Of a stretch of 64,000 bases of DNA, positions 5,285 through 38,432 are shown piece by piece. Source of the DNA: Bryopsis sp. KO-2023. Its lineage: Eukaryota; Chlorophyta; Ulvophyceae; Bryopsidales; Bryopsidaceae. Positions within the stretch are counted from its first letter, which is position 1; the number at the start of each line of letters is the position of its first letter. The position numbers and the translations under genes are program-made. The notes beneath the pieces are model-generated. The model was not told the DNA's origin. It worked only from the letters and a program-made list of their open reading frames with translations, and searched no databases. The stretch is taken from NCBI GenBank assembly GCA_030272585.1, contig BSYQ01000009.1, forward strand, positions 3,844,001-3,908,000, in the 5' to 3' direction.

Positions 5285-8200
5285 ATGGGCGAAGCCATTG
5301 AGTTTGACTCAATTGCTTTCGACGATTATAACCACCACCAGTTTTCCACACGGAGCATGGTCCACGCTCCGAACAAACAAGGAAACATGCCGAGGACGAG
5401 CGAAGACGATGAAAGGATGAAGGAAAAGCGCTTAGAAATGAGAAAGCGGCACCGCATCCGACTCCGGTATGCAAGCGAAAAGCTCAAGAAAAGCACTTGG
5501 GCGAAAGAGGTCTTACAAACGAAGTGTGCTTTGTGCGTGTTTTTAGACAACCTTTGTTGCAGAGAGGTTTCGTGGAAAATCCAAAACGCGATTGTCGTCA
5601 ATTGCAACGCGACTTCTTGGCATGAAATGTTGGCATTGGTTTTGACTCGAGATATTCTCCACATTGCAGGATTGTCGTGTGCTTGGTGTGTGTGCTTGCA
5701 TGCACACCATCGAACGCATCATTCACAGCCACCCTTGGGGACTGGCAGGAGGCTAACTCCTTCCCATCTGGGGTCATCAACTGGGACGCCAAAAGAGACG
5801 CAGGAGACTTCGTGTGCTTTTCGCCATCCTGGACGGGAATAATTTGTACCGGATCGATTCCCCAAAGAGTAGATCTGGAGGTGGGGGGCTTGTCGCTCCC
5901 AGGACCACTGGATGACCTGGCAGACACCGGTTTCTTTAAACTTGAAGTCTTGTGAGTTGGCACAGAAGCCTTATGATAGTTGATTAATTAATAATTTCAT
6001 GTTCCTGTGTGAAAACCGATTCCAATGGTGAAATTGTCAGCTCCTTTTTGCTATCGATGTACACATATCAGCTTATTCTACATTGTCAAAAGGTAAACTA
6101 AGGTGGAAGAGATTGCTAGATGCCGGACCTGCACTCCCAATGTTACATTAAGAAATGGAGAATAAAACATAAAACAGTGAGCTGAAAGAACCATGATGCT
6201 TTGAAGGGATCTGAAGGACAATTTGCTGACGGGAACGCTCCCGTCTAGCTGGAGCCGCTTGACCACCCTGACGAAAATCGACTTGTCTGGAAACAGTCTC
6301 TCTGGGCCTCTTCCTGACCAATGGTCGCGTCTTGAAAACTTGCGCGTCCTGAAATTGACGTCAAACCACGCAATATATGGAACGATCCCTGCCGGCTGGA
6401 AAACCAACATGATGCATCTACAAATGTAAGGTCACACATACACAGGCCAAACACCGTTGGGGGCTTAACAAAGGTCTTTTTTTTAATTCTTCATTCTTTT
6501 TTTTTGTGTTCGTTTGATTAGAAAAGATGTCAACACAGATACAGAGTTTTGCAACAAAAGGCCAAAAAGAAACTGGGAAAACAACATACATGTTGGCTGT
6601 CTGGATTAGTGAAAATGCAACTATGCCACATTTGCAGTTGTACAGTTGTATGACATAGTGCCATCCAGTGGATGCGGTTTTGCTGATTGATGAGGCTGGA
6701 CATTCTTGCAGTAATAAAATGCAGCGTGTGGCTGTTCTTCTTCATTGACTTAGGTTACAGATCACCCAGACTTCGATATGTGGGTTGACAGCAAGCAGTG
6801 CATCAGAATTCAAGGCAGTAGCGGGGCTTACTCTTGAAGCAGATCATATGGCATGTTCACCCCCACCCGCCCCAAGGTGAACCAGACGCTTGTCAATAAA
6901 AAAATAAATCTACTCAACTCTCTACCATAAAAAAACAAAAAGAAGCAAAAGTAGGCCATCATCCCCCATGACGCCATATGATACTAAAAACTATATCATA
7001 TAATACGAAAACGGGTGCAGGAATCGAATTGATTTCATTAATCAAACTGAACACTGATATTCAGCCATTTGAAATTATGTCCGCGGACAATTATCTTGAT
7101 AAGCGAGCTATAGCATCCTTATCACTGCTGATGGTTGTATGAGGTAAAATCACCGAGGTTTTGTGAATCCTCTCGGTTTACTCCTCCATATTTCCCTAGC
7201 ACATAAACCGCCCAAGGCCATAGTACTCTTGGATCCTAAAAAGGCCCATGATCCTATTGCCACGAGAAATACAATTCTATACACACCATACATGCTGGGA
7301 AAATACTATTATCCGCAAATAAAAGCACGAAAACGAAGTTTTGAATTGTCGGGAAGGAGTCGATTCTTTGGTCAACTTAGTTCTCAATTTTTTTTTCAAC
7401 TTTCCCCTTGCCCCCGATCGAGATCCCCGTCAATAAGGAACACAATAATGAGAACTTTTTTGCAGCACCAACGCATGTGCGTGGCCTCGAGGCCATATTG
7501 TGCAAAATGTCGCTGACTGGCAAAATAGTGTAAGCCCTTCATATTGGGCGAAGAAAACGTATCTTTTCACAAAAATCAGTTGCAACCTTCAACCTCAGCC
7601 AACGCCCAACAAATTACTGCCAAGAGCACTATCGTATTAATACTACTTATGTATTTCTAATTTGTGGACTGACTTAAACGATTGTTATCATTCCAGCCCT
7701 CCACTTCCTCCCAGTCCCCCGCCACCACATCCCCCATCCCCGCCATCTCCACCTCCACCAACCCCTCCCAATCCTCCTTCTCCACCACCTCCACCACCTC
7801 CACCAACCCCTCCCAATCCCCCACCACCACATCCCCCTTCTCCGCCACCTCCACCTCCGCCAATCCCTCCCAATCCCCCACCACCACATCCCCCATCCCC
7901 GCCAACTCCACCTCCACCAACCCCTCCCAATCCCCCACCGCCACATCCCCCTTCCCCGGCACCTCCACCACCCCCACCCCCGCCACCCCCGCCTCCACCG
8001 CCGCCGCCCCCGCCGCCCCCGCCGCCCCCGCCGCCTCCACCGCCACCACCGCCACCGCCACCGCCGCCACCACCGCCCCCGCCGCCTCCACCACCGCCCC
8101 CGCCTCCTCCATCACCGCCACCACCGCTGCCTCCACCGCCTCCACCTCCTCCACCCCCGCCGCCACCCCCGCCACCCCCGCCTCCACCGCCGCCACCCAC

Positions 8201-11200
8201 TCCATTCAATCCCCCACCTCCACCCCCTCTTTCCCCACCATCTTCTCCTCCTTCACCTCCTCCCAATCCCCTGCCGCCACGTCCCCCTTCCCCACCATCT
8301 CCACCTCCACCAGGCCCGCCCAGTCCCCCACCGCCACATTCCCCTTCCCCGCCATCCCCTCTTAATCCCCCACCACCATCTCCAGCTCCTGATCCTCCAC
8401 TACCACCTTCGCCTCCTCTCCATCCTTCGGCACCACCACCAAGGTAGGCTCTTTCCATACCCACTCCCAGGACTTCACTGTTTGTGTAAAAAAAAGGGTT
8501 CACGAAACGAGTACCTTTCAGCCCCAACACTGAGGGTGGTTTGTTACCAGCCACCACAATCAACACAAACTAATAGTTTCCTGGTCTAACAATCTGCTGC
8601 GTAGCCCAAGTCTGTCACCGAGCCAGCCATCCTATATCGAGAGTCTACTGAGATCGAAGACAATTCAGGAAGTTTGCCGAGATCACTATGAGATGGACCA
8701 GGTGCGAAGCTCCAATAAAGAAAAATCACGATTCTTCCTTCGCCATTACTATTCAACATAATACACCATTCCAAAAAGCACCGCGGCTTGCCAAGTCCAG
8801 TCCAAATTAATTGTCAACGTGAATGATTCTTGTCGAGGCTGCATCGTAATTGCAATTCTGTCCCAACCTTCTGGGTAGTACCTTGCAAATCGTGTAAGCA
8901 AAGTTCAATTTAGTGTAAGGTCTGAATTGTGCCTACAGGTGGGTAGAGCTCAGATATTGATCTTGTTGGGAGACAGATCTGGATCTGTGCATATCCAGGA
9001 TCATACATTCATGGAACCTGGAGCTGTACTCATTGATATTGCTACACGTTCAACGACTTTATTAGCTGGAGAAGACCTCGGTGTCTTTCAACAGGAGCAA
9101 AATGGTGTGCATTACATTCTGTATTATGCAAGGGACAGCAGCGACAAACCGCACGTCGCTTGCAGGCAGCTGATAGCGGCCGTGGATGTCTGCCATTCAC
9201 TCGATTGCGAGATTCAAGAGTTAATAAGGGGAGGACACGAGACCACTCAGATTTCGATCACAAGCTTGAGGGAAGCGATACCATACCAGCAGCTTACCAC
9301 AACCCTTACTTGCACAGATTCCTCCATGGCTTGTGCTCGAACACAAACCGAAATATTTGAGGAGATCCTTCAAGGAACAGAGTGGACAGCCAGTGATCAT
9401 CACGAGCTTGTTGGTTACAACACTTCCCTCGGACAAGGGGTAGACGGGGTTGGAGATCTTTGGGTTCAGGCGTTTGGTGCTGCAGCTGTGGACACGTACG
9501 AACCAACACCACCATCGACGCCCCACATGATCACCTACGACACTCGCAACAGCTACTGCCTACAGAAACAAGAGGAACCTAAAAAGCGCTGGGTTGCAGT
9601 CGTATGTCCAAAAGGCACATCGCTCTGCGATACACTCGGACAGTACAGCTGCAGACGGGAACTGGAATGTAAACTTGGTGTGGGTTCCACAGAAAACGTG
9701 GTTAGAAGGCTGCCATCTAAGCCTCATGTTGTGTTGATTGGAGATCCGGTTGTGGAGGTGCTCGAGGGAACGCCGTACGTTAGATGTCCGCTGTGCTTCG
9801 ACAACCCATTCGACTGGCCTTTCCCATGCGATCCTGGAGCAACTGCTTGGGATGAAATGGATGGGGACCTGACCGACAGGGTCGAGGTTTGCTCGAAAGA
9901 TGGTGTCAAGAGTTTATTCCATGACGGCGGTCTTGTTGGATGCGATTACAACACTAGTGTACCAGGGAGCTACATCATCGATTTCAAGGTTGAAAACAGT
10001 GGTGGTGGAGAAGGGAGTGCATCTCGGGTTCTGACGGTGCTTCCGCGATGCGATGAAGGAGAAATTCTTTGCAGGGATTCCAACATTTGCTCCACGTTTG
10101 GAGTGTGTGCACATTCAAGCATAGTCGTTACCTCTCAAGATAACGCAAGCGGAGAGCAATTATTCTTGCATTTGCTGCACCCACACAATGTGCTTAAAGG
10201 ACCAACCATCGTAAAGATTCCGCAAGGTTCTGTGTACAAGAAATGCGCGGGAGCAGAGGATTCTGAAATATGTGAGCTTGGGGCTGCGGTTTCTGACGGC
10301 CGAATGCAGGGAGTTTACACGCTTATGGCATGTCCATCAGAGGAGTGCCAGAGCAACATTTGGATGTGTGGACCTTACGTCTTTCAGCAACAAGGCCTAA
10401 ATGGATGTAAGTTGGATACAAACGCTCCCTTAGGCACAGTGCTGAGGGTGAGATTTGTCGCAATGCCGAGGGGCAGTCAACTCCCAAGATTGGAGGCGAC
10501 AAGGTATTTGCACATATCACTGAAGTGCTCGGAGCAAGAATTCTTGTGCAACGATACGTGCACTCCCATACGATGCGATGCCATGGGAGTGGGCCCTCCA
10601 AAGCTCCGACTGGACAACACATTGCCCCTGGTCGTACCCTATAAACTGTCTTGGGAAAGGTATGCTCCAGCATGCACCGATGGTGGATATGGGTACATAT
10701 GCAAAGCGAGGGCATGGGATGCAGATGGGGAAGATCTAACAGACCGGGTCCGCATTCAGAGTATCACAGGATGTGGATCAGAAAACTGTAGCTTGTGCGA
10801 CTATGAGTTGATTCTAAAAGGAGTGTGCTCACCTGGCGTGTATAAATACCGCTTCGATGTCCAAGACTCTGGTGGAAACAGTGCAGAGCCGGTCTACCAT
10901 GAGGTCCACATAGTACAGGCAGCCACACTTGCGATGAAGTTGGTGGGGCTTGGAAAAGGGCAAGATCTTCTTTCGATTGCTTCTCAAAGCCCAGGAGTTA
11001 AAACAAGCATGCAAGCGGCTGTTGCAAAAGTTCTCCAGTCGAGAATGACGGAAATTCGACCCGAACTTGACGATTTAGTGGTAAATGCACAGCACGTTGG
11101 GTTGGAGGTGCATCTCCCATCCCCTCCATCTCCATGGGCGAATACATCCATCTTTATCTACGGGAACTCAATCCTGCAGTTGTCTGGACCTTCCCTTGAA

Positions 11201-14200
11201 GATACAAGCTGGGAAAACTCGACTGTGTGGGGGGATCTTGACCGATCAACCGGGTCCCAGAGTGATTCCATGAAGCGGCTGTCACTAAAACGCCGCCTGC
11301 TTACTTTAGAATCAGAAAAAGATGACATGGGCTCCTCTCTGGAGTCCATCTCCACCGGTTTCGACTTGAAACTAACGGAGGAGTTGCGGAAACGGTTTCC
11401 AGTTGTGTTGAACGACAATGAGCCAGCTTTCACGACATCTTTCGATGTCACAGTGCACACCCAATCGACTGACGATCTCACAGCGGCCGTGAATGATGCC
11501 TCGGCGTTTAACACGGTCCTGAAGCTTTGGCTGGGTGAGATTCAAAACAAACATCGATCATTCATGCCCCATCTTGACAGGCTTGTGGGGGAGCACACGC
11601 AAAATATTTTGGAGTGGATACATGACCAGCTTGGATTTCTATCGGAAATTGATGGAGGCTTACAAAGCCTAGATTTTGAAGGATTGGCCAACATATTTTC
11701 GGAGCTGGAGAATTCGTCCACGGCAGCCATTGATGAAATCAGGAAACGAATCGAAATGCAAGTCCTGGCGCTAACCCGAACTGTGGTAAGCTTTGGTCAC
11801 AAGCCAATATTAAAAAAAGAGGAATGCATCTCTTTGTAAGTATTATGATTTGTTGCATCCTCTCACACAAAACGGTGAATTTTTGGTGCTAGGATTTGCA
11901 CTTTATGACAACCACGTCCACAGCCTGCTTGTCCAAAGACGGTGAAAGGGTCTTCGAGTTTGTACTCGACACGTTCCAGGAGAGTACATCTGAAGATGAA
12001 GAAAAAGAAATTGTTGTGCAAGGAGAAGCGCCCATTGAAAGCGATCAAAAGAATTATCGAAATCGAAGGAGCCTTCAGAGCAAAGCTGCGAAGTCATCAT
12101 CGTCTTCATCAAGGGATGCAGCCACGGGTGCCAGAAATGCAGCAAAACTGGGGGAATATGATGGATATCTTGTCGACCAGATTGTCCCAACGACACGCCT
12201 ACCAAAGCTGAAGGGAAACCACACCCAGATGAGGACCATCGGTGAAAGAAGTGTCATAATTGGCGGCGCGATGTTGTGGCAGGACAGAAGACCTAGGATA
12301 GCTGTTTGTTCCAGGAGATTCAACAACGTACAAACCTCCTGCACATATGACTGGATGGCCACCAAACGGGCAGGTGAGCAACTCAAAAGAATGCTTCTTG
12401 GAAATTGGGAATTGTGGTGAAACCAAGAGACCATGCGATGTTCCTTGCATATGTTTGTACCACCCCTGGGTGAGTGATTGTGTGGTTTCACAGAATTTGA
12501 CGGACGAGCGGGACATGGCCACGATCCAACTTTTTCCCTGTCCTCAAATTTATTCAATCCAGAATCTGCGTTGCAAGTCGAAAGACTTTACAACACAAGT
12601 TCTGAGCTCCAAGATAGTGGACTCCCATACGGATTCATCCATGACAATGACACAAGATTTGGAAGGCGTGCCTCGGTATATTTTGACATTGCCCTTTCCC
12701 AGAGGAGATCATTCGACCTTCTTTCCTATATGGCCGACGGTCAGTTCTTAGATCAGGACACTTCGATCTTTGGGATTACCGTCGTTGCCTACAACCCAAG
12801 GATGGAGGTGTTTGGTTTGATCAACACGGAATGTTCCATGAAGAGCGAAATCGTTTGCAAACTTGGGCCAGATGCTGCTGCTGATGTGGTTTTGGGGAAA
12901 TCGCATCCAGTTGTCTTCACGACATTTGTCGTGTTGGTAGCGATGGCGGCAATCACCGCTGTCTTCTGGGGCGGCTTGACTCGAGCGTCTGGGGATGCCC
13001 GTCGAGGTAAGTTGTCTCTTGCAAGAATCAAATATGGCCAATACCTAGGCAAACTGTTGATCACGATCACCATGTGCTATGTTGAAAATGTCACAATGCT
13101 TGTGAAACTTGAAACATTGTTCAGCTCGATTACAACTACATTGGTCATCTACAGCAATGAATGGCCCCTGAACACAAGTGTTGTTCGCATACATTGCAAG
13201 AGAAGTTCCTGTAGAGGGACTCAGTGTGGGATCTTTGGTCGCAGGCTCCAGCAGCATCACCCGCTGCTGGGACTTTGCAATCCTCGCTGCTCAAGTCGCA
13301 AGCCTGTGCCTTTTTTTATGCTACGCGCATTACATGGGCACCAAATTCAGTGACAAAGTCAGATATGATATCTACGAGTCACTGGATTTCGATGGAGGAC
13401 GATGGACGCTCACAAAGCGTTCAAACACGCTGGGAAACGCTTCTGTGTCTGGTGAGAATTTTCATCGTTCTGCCCACATCGTGTCGTTCGTCAGTCAACG
13501 GAAAGCATCCAAACAAGTAGTTTCATCAGTCGCACCCGAAACTACAAAGCTCTTCTGAGACAGATGCAATGAAACTTGATCTTCGCCTGCTCTGATGACA
13601 CATACACCAACCATCGCCGTGTTTTGTACTTGTCGTGGCTTGCTTGATAACAAGCAACAGATTATTCAGATGATATGTACCTGACGAATAGAACTGGTTG
13701 TAATTGAATGACACAGAGTCATGGCAAGCAAGAGAGGATCCCGAAGACATCATTGGCATAACGAATCTTCAGGATGATATGAAAACGCAAGTGAGCTTGT
13801 ACTCACTGTACTGTTTCGTACAATGCGTTGCGATATCATTGATGATTCCAAGGATGGTGCAAAAGTCATCTTTGAACCTCCAGGTATCTCCATTAATATC
13901 CCTTAAGACTTTCACACTACCGAATTTTATTTATCAGATAACCATGAAATAGTCTATGTTGTCGATTAGTCCTGAGCATTGCCCAATCAACTATCTTTCA
14001 TAGATTACTATCTTAAATCCTGTCATATGTCTGCGCACTTGGTGGTGAAAATGTTTTTTGATTCCAAAGGGACGGCGGGTCGTTCGCACCCTCGCTGCCG
14101 CCACACCGCACCTCATTGACCTTGCCTTGGCTCTCGGTGTTGTTGTAATCGGGCTTGTTCAGTTGGGGAACCTTGCTGTTGGAGACCAAGTGAAGAAACG

Positions 14201-14960
14201 GTCCAGTTTTAAGCGATCGCTCGCAGCAGAAACGGAATCCATCCTGGCATCAGGGGGAACCGGTAAAACACCCCGCTTAGTTCTATTCAAGTGCTGGACT
14301 CTATGGCAAAACACCTTTCATACATTTTGATATTGTGTACACCTTCTCCCCTTTTTATAGCTCTTTCATATTTGTCTCACAGGCGCCCTGCATATCCATT
14401 TCTTGTAGTTGAAATGGCTGAGTTTGGTTTTTACAGAGACCCTAGCGTACACCTCTGAGTCGGGCATTGAGGAGAACAAGGCGCAGAACACGCTTAGGAT
14501 TTTGTTCGGGATATCCGTCCCGATCTTTTGTGTCTTCATCCTCATGAACTTCTTCATGGCTATTCTCGGCGACGCTTTTGGAAAAGTGAAAATACATCAA
14601 GAAACCGGCCGCACGACAGAGCTGAAAACTCTTATGGACCCCCGACTCCGCTGTGTGAAAATCACACTGCATTCCATTTTGGAGAAGCATCGTCGAGAAA
14701 AGAACATCCTCTACAAGCGAAAGCTCTCTTCCCAAGGAAGTGGAGGGCGGATCACTGCGTGGCTGGCACCCAACAGGGCGCAGAGATGCGAGAAAGCGGC
14801 TCAGGGTCTAATAAACGACATGGTATGGGGTGCTTCTTGGGCTCGAGATGCAGTGCGCCAAACAGAGCGAGACATGTCCATATTGACATCAAATTCGAGG
14901 GTTGCTGGGGCGTGGGCGAATCACCTAACTAAACGACTTAGAGGGATGAGGAGAACGTAG
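5285..14960 (+). CDS. LRR / Pro-rich / Ig-like polycystin-type channel protein
   Basis: Predicted polycystin (TRPP-family) cation channel with a huge wall-type ectodomain. Exons: 5285-5532, 5670-5951, 6207-6425, 6754-6876, 7697-8443, 8605-8701, 8939-11785, 11893-12373, 12494-13006, 13179-13451, 13717-13883, 14070-14262, 14437-14960; all phases agree and sum to 2,237 aa. Order: basic cytosolic head; TM1 ~80-94 (ALIVVCLVCVLAC); plant-type LRRs ~100-250 (LTGTLPSSWSRLTTLTKIDL, SLSGPLPDQW); Pro-Ser rod ~291-540; Cys-rich ectodomain ~573-1520 with Ig-like modules carrying D-x-D-G-x-D-L-T-D-R-V; helical segment; polycystin domain ~1600-1810 (YGFIHD, FGITVVAYNPRMEVF); TM2 ~1819-1841, TM3 ~1882-1905, TM4 ~1971-1992, TM5 ~2014-2035, S6 ~2085-2111 (CVFILMNFFMAILGD). 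That is six helices, as in PKD2, so LRRs and rod sit in the TM1-TM2 loop. The pore stretch (~2036-2080) is divergent and lacks the usual LGD filter, so conduction is uncertain. ATG 5285 is the first in-frame start seen. Confidence 0.85.
7697..8443 (+). repeat. Pro-Ser coding low-complexity tract (rod exon)
   Basis: A 747-bp exon of imperfect CCNCC(A/T) repeats encoding about 249 residues, nearly all Pro with Ser, His, Asn and Thr (SPPPPHPPSP-type units). There is an uninterrupted poly-Pro stretch in the middle (~7965-8200). The plus strand is almost free of G. Such rods resemble extensin, LRX and pherophorin linkers that are hydroxylated and O-glycosylated in the secretory pathway; that modification is inference. 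Long open frames on the other strand (Gly-rich, Val-Ala-rich) are by-products of this composition. Confidence 0.9.
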
Positions 14961-24521: not shown

Positions 24522-25649
24522 TCAAACCAGCCAAGAGAAAATAGCCGAATCCAATGGATGAAAAATTTGAGAAAGCTTCAAATACTTATGAATTGATTTT
24601 GAACCCACAGCCCAACCTCCCCAATCTCGAATGCGATCCAGAGGAACCTTTGCCGAAAACATGGCAGTACATCCTCCCCTACGAAACGTATGTGTGCCCA
24701 AAAAATCCCCTGATTGTAAAACCCCAGCGGAACGCAATGCTGGTAACACACGCAACAGCGCTAAGCGCATACTGCTCGGAGAAGGCACACTTTCGGAAGG
24801 CAACTGCCAAAAATAATTGCTCCTTTGCATCGATACCTCTTGAAAAGCCTCACAGCATAATCGATTAAATTCCTGTAAGAGACTGGGAAGCTGGGGTAAT
24901 CCTTTCGAAAAAAATTTTCGCTGGCGTCGAAGCTCTTGACGGTTCTTTCCTTTGGCGCGATACTCCACAAACGACACACTGACTTCCTCCACCGACCATG
25001 ATAAATCGCCAACCTGGATGTTGGCGTAGGTATCTGCTCGCGAAAAAAATATGAACGCGATAACAGCCGCCAGTCCGTCACGCATTGCGCGTAAATCCCA
25101 ACCCCCCACTGATTCATGGAGCCAACCCACCGCTTGAGAAGGAAACGGTGTATGCTCCGGCGTTGGTGGGTCAGACTTCGCGCTCTGCAGTTCCCAACTG
25201 GATATAACCCTTGACGTCAACTCATCCTTGGCAGCATAATGTGTCTCCCCAAACCACGCGTGAGCGGTAGTAATCGCAGCCAGATATTGCGGTGCTGAAA
25301 CTGCCGATATTTCTGAAGTCCTGCGCAGGTGGAGAAGGTACTGATACACTAACTCCCTTGAAGCCGGAATGGGGCTCTGTTGCCGCTCCACTGCAAATTT
25401 CCAAAATTTTCCGAATTTGGACCAAATTGTCTTGCGACCCATAATAGCATTGCTGGACCACAACTGCTCGAGCAGCTCCATTCGCTCCTCTGCTGAGAAC
25501 TCTTTAAAACGCGTCGCAACCGCGCTTCCAACACTCAAAAGGGTGTCCCACTGTAAATTTGCAGGTGGCTTACCCAACTCTGCATGCAATTTAGCAATTA
25601 GTGCTTTATCAAAAAACACTCCATCGGCCACCTTGGTATAAACGGCTGC
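24522..25649 (-). CDS. Tyrosine recombinase of the DIRS-order retrotransposon
   Basis: Catalyses insertion of the circular cDNA by site-specific recombination. The open frame runs minus from the LTR insertion point at 25649 to the stop at 24522 (about 370 residues from a GTG at 25631). The C-terminal half has the phage-integrase-type catalytic set: the box I Arg in FSRADTYANIQVGDL, HTFRRGG (the H-x-x-R pair), WGGWAVGSKSIHKYL with the presumptive nucleophile Tyr. All key residues appear present. In the uninterrupted element the RT frame ends a few codons inside this gene in another frame, so the two ORFs overlapped. The nested LTR element now separates it from its own promoter and start region, so it is probably not expressed from this copy. 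Confidence 0.9.
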   Translation of the reverse strand, partial: AAVYTKVADGVFFDKALIAKLHAELGKPPANLQWDTLLSVGSAVATRFKEFSAEERMELLEQLWSSNAIMGRKTIWSKFGKFWKFAVERQQSPIPASRELVYQYLLHLRRTSEISAVSAPQYLAAITTAHAWFGETHYAAKDELTSRVISSWELQSAKSDPPTPEHTPFPSQAVGWLHESVGGWDLRAMRDGLAAVIAFIFFSRADTYANIQVGDLSWSVEEVSVSFVEYRAKGKNRQELRRQRKFFSKGLPQLPSLLQEFNRLCCEAFQEVSMQRSNYFWQLPSESVPSPSSMRLALLRVLPALRSAGVLQSGDFLGTHTFRRGGCTAMFSAKVPLDRIRDWGGWAVGSKSIHKYLKLSQIFHPLDSAIFSWLV

Positions 25650-25654
25650 GTCCC
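25650..25654. repeat. Target-site duplication GTCCC (left)
   Basis: GTCCC directly left of the left LTR; repeated at 34667-34671 directly right of the right LTR. Confidence 0.9.
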
Positions 25655-26295
25655 TGTAACGACTCTGCCCCTGCAGATCGCTTTTTCTGCTTCAATACAC
25701 TGAAGACTGCGACCCTGCCGGTCTGCCAGTCTGAACTGCCGTTCTATTGAACGACCATGGGAGAGACACTTGAACCTAGCAAGGTTCAAGGGCGAGATCA
25801 GGTTCCAAACTAAGGTTACAAGAATGTCCAAGCCCCAACAACTTATACCGTTTCTTCCAACCCTGATCCAAACTGATCCTAAGCCATAACATCAGTCTGC
25901 ATCAGTGTTGCAGACCATCAAACTACCAAGTCCCTTTCAGTCCTCTTTCATGACATGCAGCCTCAGACACCTTGCACGGTACTGCGGTCCTGAGTCTGCC
26001 ACCTAAGACCTTCTAGAACTTTGTGCCTACCAGCTCTGCAGCCCACGTTCTGCAGCGCTGTCAGCACCTGTCTGTCGTCAGCAAACCTGCCAGCCCGACT
26101 ACTCTGCCACTTCGTCAGTCTGTCAATCTGCTGACTGCCAGCCTATTAGTCTGCAGGTCTAAAGGACCTGAACCATTCCTGCTTCTGCTGAATCATAGCA
26201 GTCAACCTGCAGCTCTAACCTGTCAGCCCAATCACTGCCAGTCTGCAAGCCTGCAGGTCTGCCTGAATCTCCTTTGATTCTGCCGAATCCTTACA
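25655..26295 (-). repeat. LTR (left; 3' LTR in element orientation)
   Basis: 641 bp. Starts TGTAACGACTCTGCC and ends GAATCCTTACA on the plus strand. Differs from the right LTR at about 8 positions, all within the first ~50 bp. Confidence 0.95.
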
Positions 26296-34025: not shown

Positions 34026-34666
34026 TGTAACGATTCTGCCCCTGCAGATCGCTTTTTCCACTCAAGTCCATTGAAGACTGCGACCCTGCCGGTCTGCCAG
34101 TCTGAACTGCCGTTCTATTGAACGACCATGGGAGAGACACTTGAACCTAGCAAGGTTCAAGGGCGAGATCAGGTTCCAAACTAAGGTTACAAGAATGTCC
34201 AAGCCCCAACAACTTATACCGTTTCTTCCAACCCTGATCCAAACTGATCCTAAGCCATAACATCAGTCTGCATCAGTGTTGCAGACCATCAAACTACCAA
34301 GTCCCTTTCAGTCCTCTTTCATGACATGCAGCCTCAGACACCTTGCACGGTACTGCGGTCCTGAGTCTGCCACCTAAGACCTTCTAGAACTTTGTGCCTA
34401 CCAGCTCTGCAGCCCACGTTCTGCAGCGCTGTCAGCACCTGTCTGTCGTCAGCAAACCTGCCAGCCCGACTACTCTGCCACTTCGTCAGTCTGTCAATCT
34501 GCTGACTGCCAGCCTATTAGTCTGCAGGTCTAAAGGACCTGAACCATTCCTGCTTCTGCTGAATCATAGCAGTCAACCTGCAGCTCTAACCTGTCAGCCC
34601 AATCACTGCCAGTCTGCAAGCCTGCAGGTCTGCCTGAATCTCCTTTGATTCTGCCGAATCCTTACA
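34026..34666 (-). repeat. LTR (right; 5' LTR in element orientation)
   Basis: 641 bp, TGTAACGATTCTGCC ... GAATCCTTACA on the plus strand; same as the left LTR beyond the first ~50 bp. Confidence 0.95.
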
Positions 34667-34671
34667 GTCCC
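34667..34671. repeat. Target-site duplication GTCCC (right)
   Basis: Second copy of the 5-bp duplication; 5 bp is the usual stagger of LTR-element integrases. Confidence 0.9.
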
Positions 34672-36648
34672 TTTCAGAAACGTCGACGAATCCATCGGGA
34701 GGAGAAGGCGCTTCGTTGCCATCATGCACAGATCCCTGTACCAATGTTTCGCTTCCCAACGCGGAACCACCAGTAATGCCTCGATCGGTTTCACCTCCTT
34801 GATCAGTTGGATTAATTGAGGGACCAGGCCGAAGGGAGGGAAGCAATAATTTTTCTCCAAACTCCAAGCTTGATGGGTTTGCCTCAGCGCGTCGATATTC
34901 TCCGCTTGAGGGTCGGCCGAAATTGCATTGAATCGGGGTAACTGTGAATTGTGCAGAGCCGCGAATCTGTCCACAGTTGGACGAAATCGGCACTCCTGGC
35001 ACAGCCATCGAAAAATTGCCGGATTGAGAGCGATATCCCCCGCCTCGACCATCCTTGATAACTGATCGGCTCTGTAATTCTCCAAAGTTCCCCACCACTT
35101 CATCTTCCACTCGATATGCTTGGCTTCGCACACCTCCAAAATCTGCCCCAGAACCGCTCTCAGCCTCGGAATATTGGTATACACGCCTCGAAGTATGTGG
35201 TAACAAACTTGGGAGTCCGTCACAATCTCCAAGCGTTGGTCCTTTACCACTTCCTTGAAGGCCAGTAGTCCCAACAAAATCGCCTTGAGTTCCTTGAAGT
35301 TGATGGAACGTGGACGATCTTCGAGAGTCCACAATCCCTTGGCGATCAGATAGTTTGGTTCCTTGGAAGGGCGTGTCTTGGAAAGGGTGCTGGGCGACCC
35401 CAAAGCCACCCCCCAGCCCACCTCTGACGCGTCCGACTCCATGCGTATCGATGGAACCCACTCCATGGCCCGACCGTGCCAATGTTGCGGGATTTGCTGC
35501 CACCAAACAATTTGTTTGATGGCTTTCAAAGGGATTCGCACCCAACTGGTCCATTTCCTTTTTCCTTTCAAACTGAGAAAAAGTTCCCCTAGGAAAAAGC
35601 GCGCCGTGGGAATCGCGGCTAGAACTGAGCAAGCTTTCCCGACAAAACTCGCTACTAAGCGCGCTGGCGCCGAACCCTTGTTGTCGCGAATCACCTTGAG
35701 AAGTTTCCCCGCTTTCTCGAATAACTGGGTTTCGACGTGCGAAGGCACCAAAATTAACCCCCTGTCCAAATCCAATTGCAGACCGAGGTGCATCACCTGA
35801 CGCTGCGGCGCAAAACAACTCTTCTCTTCGCGTATGGTGATCCCCAAAGCTTCCACCACGTCCCTCACCTGAGAACCCCATTCCTTCGAAGCATTCGGAT
35901 GTCCTCCTAGGATGTCGTCCAGATAAAACAGAAAACTTCCCGAACTCCCCTGGTGCCAATACCTTGCTAACGCTGGGGTTGAAGGGCAAGGCACACTGTG
36001 GGGATTTCTCAGAAAGCGAGCAATCGGCTTGGTAAACCGACTGAAAATCCTTGGACTGGATGTCCATCCGAACGGGAGGGAGGGAACTTCGTAAACCTTG
36101 TCCTCCACTCGAATGCAAAAATGACGACGGTCCTCCTTGTGAATCGAAACGTGGTGGAACGCCTCGGCGATATCGAAGGCTATTAAACCCGAACTGTCCC
36201 GGATCCAGGGAACCGCTTCCTTGAGTCGTTCGTATCTCATCGACCGCTTGACCGTATGTTCGTTCACATGGCGGAGATCGATCACGAGACGAAACGAAGT
36301 AATCCTCCCCTCGCGGTACTTCGGAATCAAAAACCCGCGAGAAATGAAGCGGGCGCAACGCGCTGGCCTCAAGCCGCCCGTCTCTAGGTACTTCGGTAAT
36401 AGCTCCTTCCATGCTACGCGCTCCTCCTGAGTTTTCAATATCGTGGAACCCAAATCGAAGGGCTCCAACGGCTTTTTCCATTCGATCCTCACCCCCTGCG
36501 CTATCCACTTTAGCACATTTTTGTCTGCTCCGATCTCCTTCCACTGAGCCAGCTGACGGCGGACTCGAACATAATGAGGAGGCTTCTGAATACCAAATTT
36601 CGTCCTCAGCCGTGCTTCCTCGCGCTGTGCCCAAGCCCACTGCGCCAT
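34667..36648 (-). CDS. Reverse transcriptase / RNase H, 3' end cut by LTR insertion
   Basis: Copies the element RNA. The frame starts at ATG 36648, 11 bp after the gag-like stop. RT motifs: FRLVIDLRHVNEHT, FDIAEAFHHVSIH, LPFGWTSSPRIFSRF, and the catalytic FYLDDILGG (about residue 230). RNase H follows with the acidic set in MESDASEVGWG, FKELKAILLGL and IVTDSQVCYHIL. Downstream is the block typical of DIRS-order polyproteins (VDRFAALHNSQLPRFNA, CFPPFGLVPQLIQLI, VVPRWEAKHWYRDL). Native coding ends at the LTR insertion (34667); the open frame runs on ~60 bp into the LTR by chance. In the intact element it would have ended just past 25630 on the left side of the insertion, overlapping the recombinase ORF. 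The long frame 34586-36805 is a shadow. Confidence 0.93.
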
Positions 36649-36659
36649 CCGACACTGCG

Positions 36660-37424
36660 TTAGGCTTCGTCGGTTGCAGGGGGTGGTTTTGCTGGATCAC
36701 GTCCCTTCTTTCCGCCACGGGACTTTCTTCGTCCTCCCTGCTTCTGTCCGTCTTGGGCTGCCTTTCGGATACTCTCTTTTTCGGTCCTGGAGCGCAACCC
36801 TTCATAAAACGTACGAACCACAGGAGGCAACAATTCCTGGGTAGAACCCCACAAATGAATAGCGGTTTGCAAACCGCTTGCAGCAGGTTGACCGTTCTGG
36901 TCGAATTCCCCTCGAGTTTTTAGTACCAAAAATTGGGAGGCCGCCAAATCAGTTGTACGCGACAATGCCACAAACCAGCCTACCAAGGCGCCACGCAACT
37001 CGTCCGCCACTTCGTGATGGGCGAGAAAGGCCGCAATAAACCCAGTGAGATCGAATAAGTAACTCACAACAGGGGCCCAATTTGATGCCTCGTGGGCAAA
37101 CGACGACCTATCTCCCAATTGCGTTAACAACCGACCGCCCCTTGCTGTAGACCCAATATCGAACCAATGCCCAAATTGCACAGCTCCTGCAGGGCGATCC
37201 ACTGGATTAGTGCGCAAGTGAGGCACACCGTTGGGCTCCACAGCGAACGACGTAACGTGCTCAGGCAACGAAAAGCCGTAAGAGCTCGCAGTCTCCAAAA
37301 AAAGCCGGCCTCCAATTCTGGGGAACGTTGTGCTGCATACGACAGAACACCGCAATAACGGGAGTCGTAGAAACGAGACACTCAAGTCTCGAGAGTTTAA
37401 ACACGCAAGTGTATACGTTTTCAA
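36660..37424 (-). CDS. Gag-like ORF1 of the tyrosine-recombinase retrotransposon
   Basis: 254 codons, first ORF of the element, starting just inside A1. No zinc knuckle or other domain is visible. The C terminus is strongly basic and disordered (GGRRKSRGGKKGRDPAKPPP), suited to RNA binding. The call rests on position (5' of RT, 11-bp gap to the RT start) and on the basic tail, not on sequence similarity. Confidence 0.65.
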   Translation of the reverse strand: MKTYTLACLNSRDLSVSFLRLPLLRCSVVCSTTFPRIGGRLFLETASSYGFSLPEHVTSFAVEPNGVPHLRTNPVDRPAGAVQFGHWFDIGSTARGGRLLTQLGDRSSFAHEASNWAPVVSYLFDLTGFIAAFLAHHEVADELRGALVGWFVALSRTTDLAASQFLVLKTRGEFDQNGQPAASGLQTAIHLWGSTQELLPPVVRTFYEGLRSRTEKESIRKAAQDGQKQGGRRKSRGGKKGRDPAKPPPATDEA

Positions 37425-37427
37425 AAA

Positions 37428-37590
37428 AGAAAACGAGATGAAACTACAGCTCCCAACTGTGAATAAATACTAACTGCTGCTCAAAAGCACACTGCCAGCC
37501 TATCACATCTTGGAACTAGTCTTTTCCCACCCTGGAGCCGAGACTCACTCGTTATTTAATCTCCTCTACTTAATGTAACGTCCCATTAAA
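37428..37590 (-). repeat. Split direct repeat A1
   Basis: 163 bp at the 5' end of the element (minus). Its outer edge, CCCATTAAA at 37582-37590, is 68 bp from the ATG of the solute-binding-protein gene. Confidence 0.9.
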
Positions 37591-37658
37591 ACACGCGCCA
37601 GATAAGGAGTTCATCCTGCCCATCCCGTTTTTCAACACAGCAGAGCCGGCTCCCAACC

Positions 37659-38432
37659 ATGAACTCCCTACTCTTGGTCTGTTTGGCAGTCTGTGCGATC
37701 GCGGCCAATGGCCACTCCGTCAACGGTATTCCACAAACACACTGGAAGGTCGCCATGGTGAAGGATGCGCTCCCTTTTACAGACTATGACGAAGAAGCAG
37801 GCGCGGTTGGGATGGATGTGTCTATTCTCAAGCTCGTGGGGGACCAGTACCGAGATATCACGGTTGACTTCCTCGCAAAGGGGTCGTTCGCCGAAGGCTT
37901 GGGTGCCACGCTCTTGGGACCCGTTCACATCGCTGGCGGGATCTATCCGACCAAGAAGATGAAGCAGTTGGTCTCGTTCACGAACCCCTACTTCAAAGAC
38001 GCTTTCGTTCTGGTAGTTAAAGAAGGAAACGACACGATCACATCCCCATCCGATCTTGAGGGGAAAGTCGTCGGCATCCTTGAAGATACGGATCTGGCCT
38101 CGGTGTCGTCCGAGTTCGACGGAATCAAGAGAGCAAAGGCATACGGCGATATGAAAGAGTTGATCAACGGCGTTATGATCGGGAAAGCTGCCGCGGCAGT
38201 GGCCTCGAAGCACGCTGTCGCATACGGCCTCGGCGCAGGAACTATTGAGGGCGTCAAGATTGTCGGGGAAGACATCGCGCCCCGTCCCCTTTCTTTCGCC
38301 GTCCAGAAAGAGAAGCCCGACCTCGTGGAGCGCATCAACGAACAGTTGAAATGGATGGTCGCTGACGGGACCGTGGAAGGCTTTTTCCGTGAGTACTTTG
38401 GGACGGACGCCGAGTTTCCAGCTCTGGAGTAG
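37659..38432 (+). CDS. Secreted bacterial-type solute-binding protein (SBP_bac_3-like)
   Basis: 257 aa, one exon. Residues 1-18 (MNSLLLVCLAVCAIAANG) are a signal peptide. The mature part follows the family-3 periplasmic binding fold of polar amino-acid ABC importers: WKVAMVKDALPFTDYDEEAG, GMDVSILKLVGDQY, ITVDFLAKGSFAEGLGATLL, SFTNPYFKDAFVLVVKEG, a hinge LEGKVVGILEDTD, and the C-terminal FAVQKEKPDLVERINEQLKWM. Length is normal for the family. Bacteria use such proteins to catch amino acids for a membrane permease; no permease is nearby, and in eukaryotes the fold is otherwise mostly found fused to glutamate-receptor channels. Lack of introns, the prokaryotic family and a GC content above the flanks suggest horizontal acquisition. 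The YR retrotransposon ends 68 bp upstream, so its original promoter has been displaced or replaced. Confidence 0.85.
   Translation: MNSLLLVCLAVCAIAANGHSVNGIPQTHWKVAMVKDALPFTDYDEEAGAVGMDVSILKLVGDQYRDITVDFLAKGSFAEGLGATLLGPVHIAGGIYPTKKMKQLVSFTNPYFKDAFVLVVKEGNDTITSPSDLEGKVVGILEDTDLASVSSEFDGIKRAKAYGDMKELINGVMIGKAAAAVASKHAVAYGLGAGTIEGVKIVGEDIAPRPLSFAVQKEKPDLVERINEQLKWMVADGTVEGFFREYFGTDAEFPALE

Follow-up and report, generated by a model that had tools for sequence, protein, structure and literature searches.

The window analyzed here, 64,000 nucleotides of the siphonous green alga Bryopsis sp. KO-2023 (assembly GCA_030272585.1, contig BSYQ01000009.1, forward-strand positions 3,844,001 to 3,908,000), carries on its plus strand a gene of 13 exons (window positions 5285 to 14960). 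The introns are all GT-AG, and the exons join in phase into a chain of 2,193 residues with a single terminal stop; the initial annotation had the exon number and the phasing right, and its length of 2,237 residues needs to be corrected. The chain runs from a basic N terminus and a short hydrophobic run through leucine-rich repeats (LRRs), a proline rod, a Cys-rich immunoglobulin (Ig)-like ectodomain, and a TOP (polycystin) domain to five membrane helices, S2 to S6, which were recognized by hydropathy. Judged from its sequence, the gene probably encodes a split polycystin subunit of the MST3 type rather than a self-sufficient channel.

In the spliced pieces, the LRRs exceed the Pfam cut-offs (LRR_8, E 5.7e-12; LRR_1, E 3.6e-9), and the ectodomain has one Pfam Ig-like match (PF16403, E 6.3e-7); a predicted structure of exon 7, built on a five-row alignment, had a mean predicted local distance difference test score (pLDDT) of 27.6 and was discarded. 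The rod comprises 264 residues, including 201 Pro (76%), 27 Ser, and no Tyr, and its fully extended length is calculated at about 82 nm (0.31 nm per residue). It is Pro-rich, as had been described, with seven SPPPP motifs, and "extensin" is a loose name for it, given that it contains no YxY motif. The polycystin identity assigned initially is upheld, since the spliced chain matches PKD_channel (PF08016) with an E of 1.1e-9 and 38.6 bits (cut-off, 22.4), and the C-terminal third matches PKD2L1 with an E of 8e-6. In an exon-by-exon profile search of the Bryopsis genome (91 Mb, 28 contigs), the locus stayed short of E 1e-3 for PKD_channel and was not listed for the TOP family PF20519, to which the spliced chain likewise gave no match at E ≤1. 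The TOP domain was instead read from alignments, which contain a 48-bit stretch to MST3 directly before S2 and a weak one (4.1 bits) to the TOP domain of PKD2L1; no first TOP helices are seen in the alignments of the window gene. PKD_channel has 20 matches in the Bryopsis genome, two of them within one gene on contig C15, and the polycystin family is thus a large one.

A search of solved structures with the ectodomain yielded a single significant match, chain X of PDB entry 9b4h (MST3), which extends over three collinear stretches (E 3.6e-29), and MST3 is also the first match of the C-terminal third with its TOP domain and pore (9b4h_X, E 3.9e-17). MST3 (Cre06.g309951) is described as the central, or axial, protein of the Chlamydomonas mastigoneme: it has 8,572 residues, of which 1,600 form a C-terminal tail, contains 42 poly-Pro repeats, and probably begins with a signal peptide that is cleaved off. 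It is reported to be without S1 and two helices of the TOP domain, a region that SIP encodes, and the proposed channel combines PKD2 with MST3:SIP at 3:1 (PMC11015965). MST3 thus offers a published precedent for a polycystin that bears a poly-Pro rod. The window gene is homologous to MST3 in the Ig-like ectodomain, the TOP domain, and the pore, and like MST3 (PMC11015965) it has poly-Pro in the ectodomain and apparently no S1, but it is far shorter, has a single rod, and carries LRRs at its tip. Seven further Chlamydomonas proteins with incomplete PKD domains are predicted SIP binders; they have large ectodomains and lack the S1 region, six of the seven contain poly-Pro, and LRR is among the domain abbreviations listed (PMC11015965), although the figure legend from which we take this does not establish LRRs and poly-Pro in one chain. 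SIP itself has 361 residues and one membrane helix and is reported from various green algae, some of which have no MST1 or no cilia, and as undetected outside green algae (PMC10846610). In Volvox, Vafri_7273 and VOLCADRAFT_89514 (P0003 and P0004) have Ig-like ectodomains 27 to 28% identical to that of the window gene, and a TOP domain and an S2-S6-like part according to blastp and hydropathy; in P0004, a Pro rod lies ahead of these. P0003 reaches 22.0 bits for Pfam PKD_channel, against the cut-off of 22.4, and P0004 gives no match; neither has a Pfam LRR, and P0004 starts with a short LRR-like stretch recognized by eye only.

Two better-known families resemble parts of the window gene. Plant LRR-extensins (LRX) likewise have LRRs followed by a Ser/Pro rod, and to our knowledge they contain no channel; the window gene, with a channel and without the YxY cross-link motif, does not qualify as an LRX protein. 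The likeness to animal polycystin-1 pointed out at the start is borne out, as polycystin-1 (PKD1) also exposes LRRs and Ig-like domains outside the cell. Unlike the window gene, polycystin-1 has eleven membrane helices together with GAIN/GPS and REJ domains, and we know of no Pro rod in it. Polycystin-1 enters its channel as one chain in a 3:1 assembly, and MST3 has been likened to it (PMC11015965).

A genome search with 287 ectodomain residues hit five places, and at least four Bryopsis copies are LRR-tipped and rod-bearing. The window gene has a close paralog, BSKO_10507 (L021/L028, G000:C9:3776500-3792400), which is on the opposite strand with its 5' end at a distance of about 58 kb. The divergent copies L022 (C11) and L032 (C9) each retain LRRs, Pro rod, Ig-like region, TOP domain, and channel on one strand within 10 kb, with Ig regions about 30% identical. 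The fifth locus, on C1, has LRR matches upstream and a TOP domain plus S2 downstream. Exon 7 of BSKO_10507 contains an insertion of about 2.7 kb with a short direct repeat on either side, and the deposited protein (P0002) lacks residues around it.

Table 1. Exons of the window gene and three other open reading frames of the window
Feature	Positions	Strand	Content
Exon 1	5285..5466	+	Basic N-terminal segment; ATG 5285, alternative in-frame Met M25, M35, M52
Exon 2	5670..5951	+	Hydrophobic signal-peptide-like core (5671-5718) ending in S-N-A; LRR N-terminal cap by eye
Exon 3	6207..6425	+	Plant-type LRRs (Pfam LRR_8, LRR_1)
Exon 4	6754..6876	+	Final LRR-like stretch (by eye); Pro rod begins
Exon 5	7697..8443	+	Pro rod; paralog open in the same frame
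Exon 6	8605..8701	+	Rod end and bridge into ectodomain; dN/dS 0.16 versus paralog (32 codons)
Exon 7	8939..11785	+	Cys-rich Ig-like ectodomain, 949 residues; homology to MST3 residues 4662-5229 in three stretches
Exon 8	11893..12373	+	Stalk, then first TOP (polycystin) domain strand from ~12238
Exon 9	12494..13006	+	Remaining TOP domain and S2 (~12910-12978)
Exon 10	13245..13451	+	S3
Exon 11	13717..13883	+	S4
Exon 12	14070..14262	+	S4-S5 linker, S5, pore loop; ILASGG replaces acidic LGD-type filter
Exon 13	14437..14960	+	Pore loop end, S6 (~14511-14576), basic cytosolic tail, stop
Recombinase-like open reading frame	24522-25691	-	Tyrosine recombinase-like by eye; no Pfam match
Reverse transcriptase open reading frame	34603-36696	-	RVT_1, E 1.8e-13
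Solute-binding-type open reading frame	37590-38432	+	Uninterrupted; signal-peptide-like start by eye; bacterial-type SBP_bac_3, E 1.1e-17

The LRRs, rod, and ectodomain had initially been placed within the TM1-TM2 loop of a complete channel. For this to hold, the N-terminal hydrophobic segment would have to be a signal anchor serving as S1, with a cytosolic N terminus and with LRRs, rod, and Ig-like region all in the S1-S2 loop, an arrangement that we consider unlikely. A basic segment does precede the hydrophobic run, and a polycystin on C8 (L029, G000:C8:333500-342500) shows the layout to be possible in the Bryopsis genome. That protein has, by eye, S1 in cis, separated from S2 by about 1000 residues; used as a genome query, its S1 region matched its own gene alone. 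However, the uncharged N-terminal run measures only 12 residues in both the window gene and its paralog and 11 and 7 in the two divergent copies, compared with 15 and 17 for the S1 helices recognized by eye in the C15 PKD2 and the C8 polycystin, where the TOP domain start comes next. In all four copies the run is directly followed by the LRR part, not by a TOP start, and it ends by eye in a cleavage-like small-residue motif (S-N-A, S-N-A, S-E-A, and P-A-A); the N termini of L022, MGENLVYLLFWVFLIRSEA, and of L032, MYYWLQACLFFLFPLLAPAA, look by eye like plain signal peptides ahead of the LRR part. The reported absence of S1 from MST3 (PMC11015965) points the same way. Beside the TOP domain of the window gene no S1 in cis was found, the only hydrophobic segment upstream being the signal-peptide-like run about 1,500 residues away. 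The N-terminal segment thus looks more like a putative signal peptide than like S1, and the single-chain mechanosensor proposed at first is unlikely because the chain offers only the five helices S2 to S6 and an S1 in cis is unsupported. The start codon may also lie further downstream, at M25, M35, or M52, because ATG 5285 reads GTG in the close paralog.

The pore gives a further indication. In an alignment of 10 pore regions, PKD2L1, the Bryopsis PKD2, and the C8 polycystin have an acidic filter residue, whereas the filter region is non-acidic, with ASG or AGG, in the window gene, L021, and L022 (ILASGG in the first two) and holds other non-acidic residues in MST3 and the two Volvox proteins. 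Without proving it, a non-acidic filter fits an accessory subunit in the manner of polycystin-1 better than a self-sufficient channel. A PKD2-like gene, which might encode the PKD2 partner, lies around C15:149.8-152.2 kb.

Several observations weigh against a split subunit. By mean hydropathy over 19 residues, the N-terminal segment and S1 cannot be told apart: the value of 1.83 for the window gene is inside the S1 range, which spans 0.99 (PKD2, by eye) to 2.22 (C8), and so are those of L021 (1.43), L022 (1.46), and L032 (1.73). A start at 5285 would place 51 residues ahead of M52, a layout compatible with a signal anchor. L032 retains a Glu at or near the filter position, and the Volvox proteins P0003 and P0004 look N-terminally incomplete and are uninformative about an N-terminal S1. 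The main gap concerns SIP, of which three weak tests, all made with queries other than a SIP sequence, showed no homolog in Bryopsis. The N-terminal half of PF20519 was matched only by the PKD2 gene (one of four matches), a genome query with the S1-TOP region of the Bryopsis PKD2 gave the query itself alone, and a related query gave no match among 246 candidates of a protein database. In the PDB, the PKD2 S1-TOP piece matched nothing but PKD2L1, and that weakly (E 0.36 and 0.4).

It is highly unlikely that the locus consists of two genes, an LRX-like one for LRRs and Pro rod and a separate channel gene from exon 6 or 7, as the deposited annotation has it. The deposited model of the locus, BSKO_10522, is identical to the 13-exon model except for one 23-residue gap and a later start, at residue 575 (an in-frame Met in exon 7), so that LRRs and rod are omitted; BSKO_10507 starts at the residue matching 548 (an in-frame Met in exon 6), and these in-frame starts of the deposited proteins (P0001 and P0002) are what speaks for a split. 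Yet there is no in-frame stop between the two parts, and exon 6, which joins them, is conserved at the protein level. For the 12 exons compared with the paralog (exon 7 was excluded from both the splice-site and the dN/dS comparison because of the insertion), each of the 11 acceptors reads AG and each of the 11 donors GT, and wherever exon lengths differ, they do so by a multiple of three. As the exons are 68 to 96% identical in DNA, part of this conservation is expected of any recent duplicate; the domain order, however, is retained in the divergent L022 and L032, and Volvox P0004 combines Pro rod, Ig-like ectodomain, and channel part in a single deposited protein, the channel part being recognized by blastp (E 3.6e-7) and not by Pfam. 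The dN/dS values against the paralog (ratio of nonsynonymous to synonymous substitution rates), which are below 0.6 in 11 of the 12 exons, also favor one gene, except that exon 3 taken alone has 1.46 and speaks against it for that exon. In addition, both deposited models take a later exon 9 acceptor (12563 instead of 12494) and thereby lose 23 residues; this acceptor is probably wrong, because the dropped stretch can be aligned with MST3 and is similar to the C8 polycystin. The locus is thus very probably one gene, as the initial annotation had proposed, uniting LRRs, Pro rod, Ig-like Cys-rich ectodomain, and polycystin part; the conserved splice sites and the same order in three further copies argue for it.

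It is very improbable that the window gene, as a duplicate within a multicopy family, is silent or decaying, although the insertion in BSKO_10507 might suggest decay for some copies: its reading frame is unbroken, and 11 of the 12 exons have a dN/dS below 0.6 against the paralog, exon 3 (1.46) being the exception (exon 1, 0.47; exons 2 to 4 together, 0.57; rod exon, 0.07 with synonymous sites saturated; exons 8 to 13 together, 0.27).

For a split subunit of the MST3 type, the following working model may be drawn. A signal peptide, presumably cleaved, would send the N terminus out of the cell, and the LRR tip, a stiff polyproline-II rod, and the Ig-like Cys-rich spacer would follow one another between the surroundings and the membrane; the rod would presumably carry both hydroxylation and glycosylation. 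Behind a TOP domain without its first helices, the chain would enter the membrane with S2 and contribute S2 to S6, whereas another small protein, a putative counterpart of the Chlamydomonas SIP, would supply S1 and the TOP helices that the chain lacks. The pore would be built from PKD2 subunits, the presumed partners in a heterotetramer. With rod and tip anchored to another filament or to material of the wall or surface, a pull or the binding of a ligand at the tip might travel along the rod, act on the TOP domain, and thereby bias the opening of the channel, and it is in this assembly that the protein could take part in mechanosensing. Alternatively, the channel part may serve mainly as a membrane anchor for the rod.

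Three other open reading frames of the window lie apart from this gene (Table 1). The one with the SBP_bac_3 domain is a possible transfer from bacteria, and the reverse transcriptase and the recombinase-like frame, 9 kb apart, are perhaps remnants of DIRS-like elements.

Bryopsis is coenocytic and is known to form cilia only in its swimming stages. It is conceivable, if doubtful, that LRR-tipped subunits of the MST3 type were turned there from mastigoneme anchors into receptors for wall or surface ligands, as plant-like counterparts of polycystin-1 that possibly act without SIP. Among the matches listed in our literature search, whose coverage left most subscription papers outside, no title dealt with polycystins in Bryopsis. 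Public gene models can lose the rod and the LRRs, as at this locus, and the domain order is then hidden from database searches. The window gene extends the known MST3-type family and does not found a new one; with it, the design of a poly-Pro rod on an incomplete polycystin reaches from Chlamydomonas and Volvox to a siphonous, coenocytic ulvophyte, which suggests that this design may predate the mastigonemes of the volvocine algae. For structural work, the protein, with its 2.2 kilo-residues, offers a natural relative of the huge MST3.

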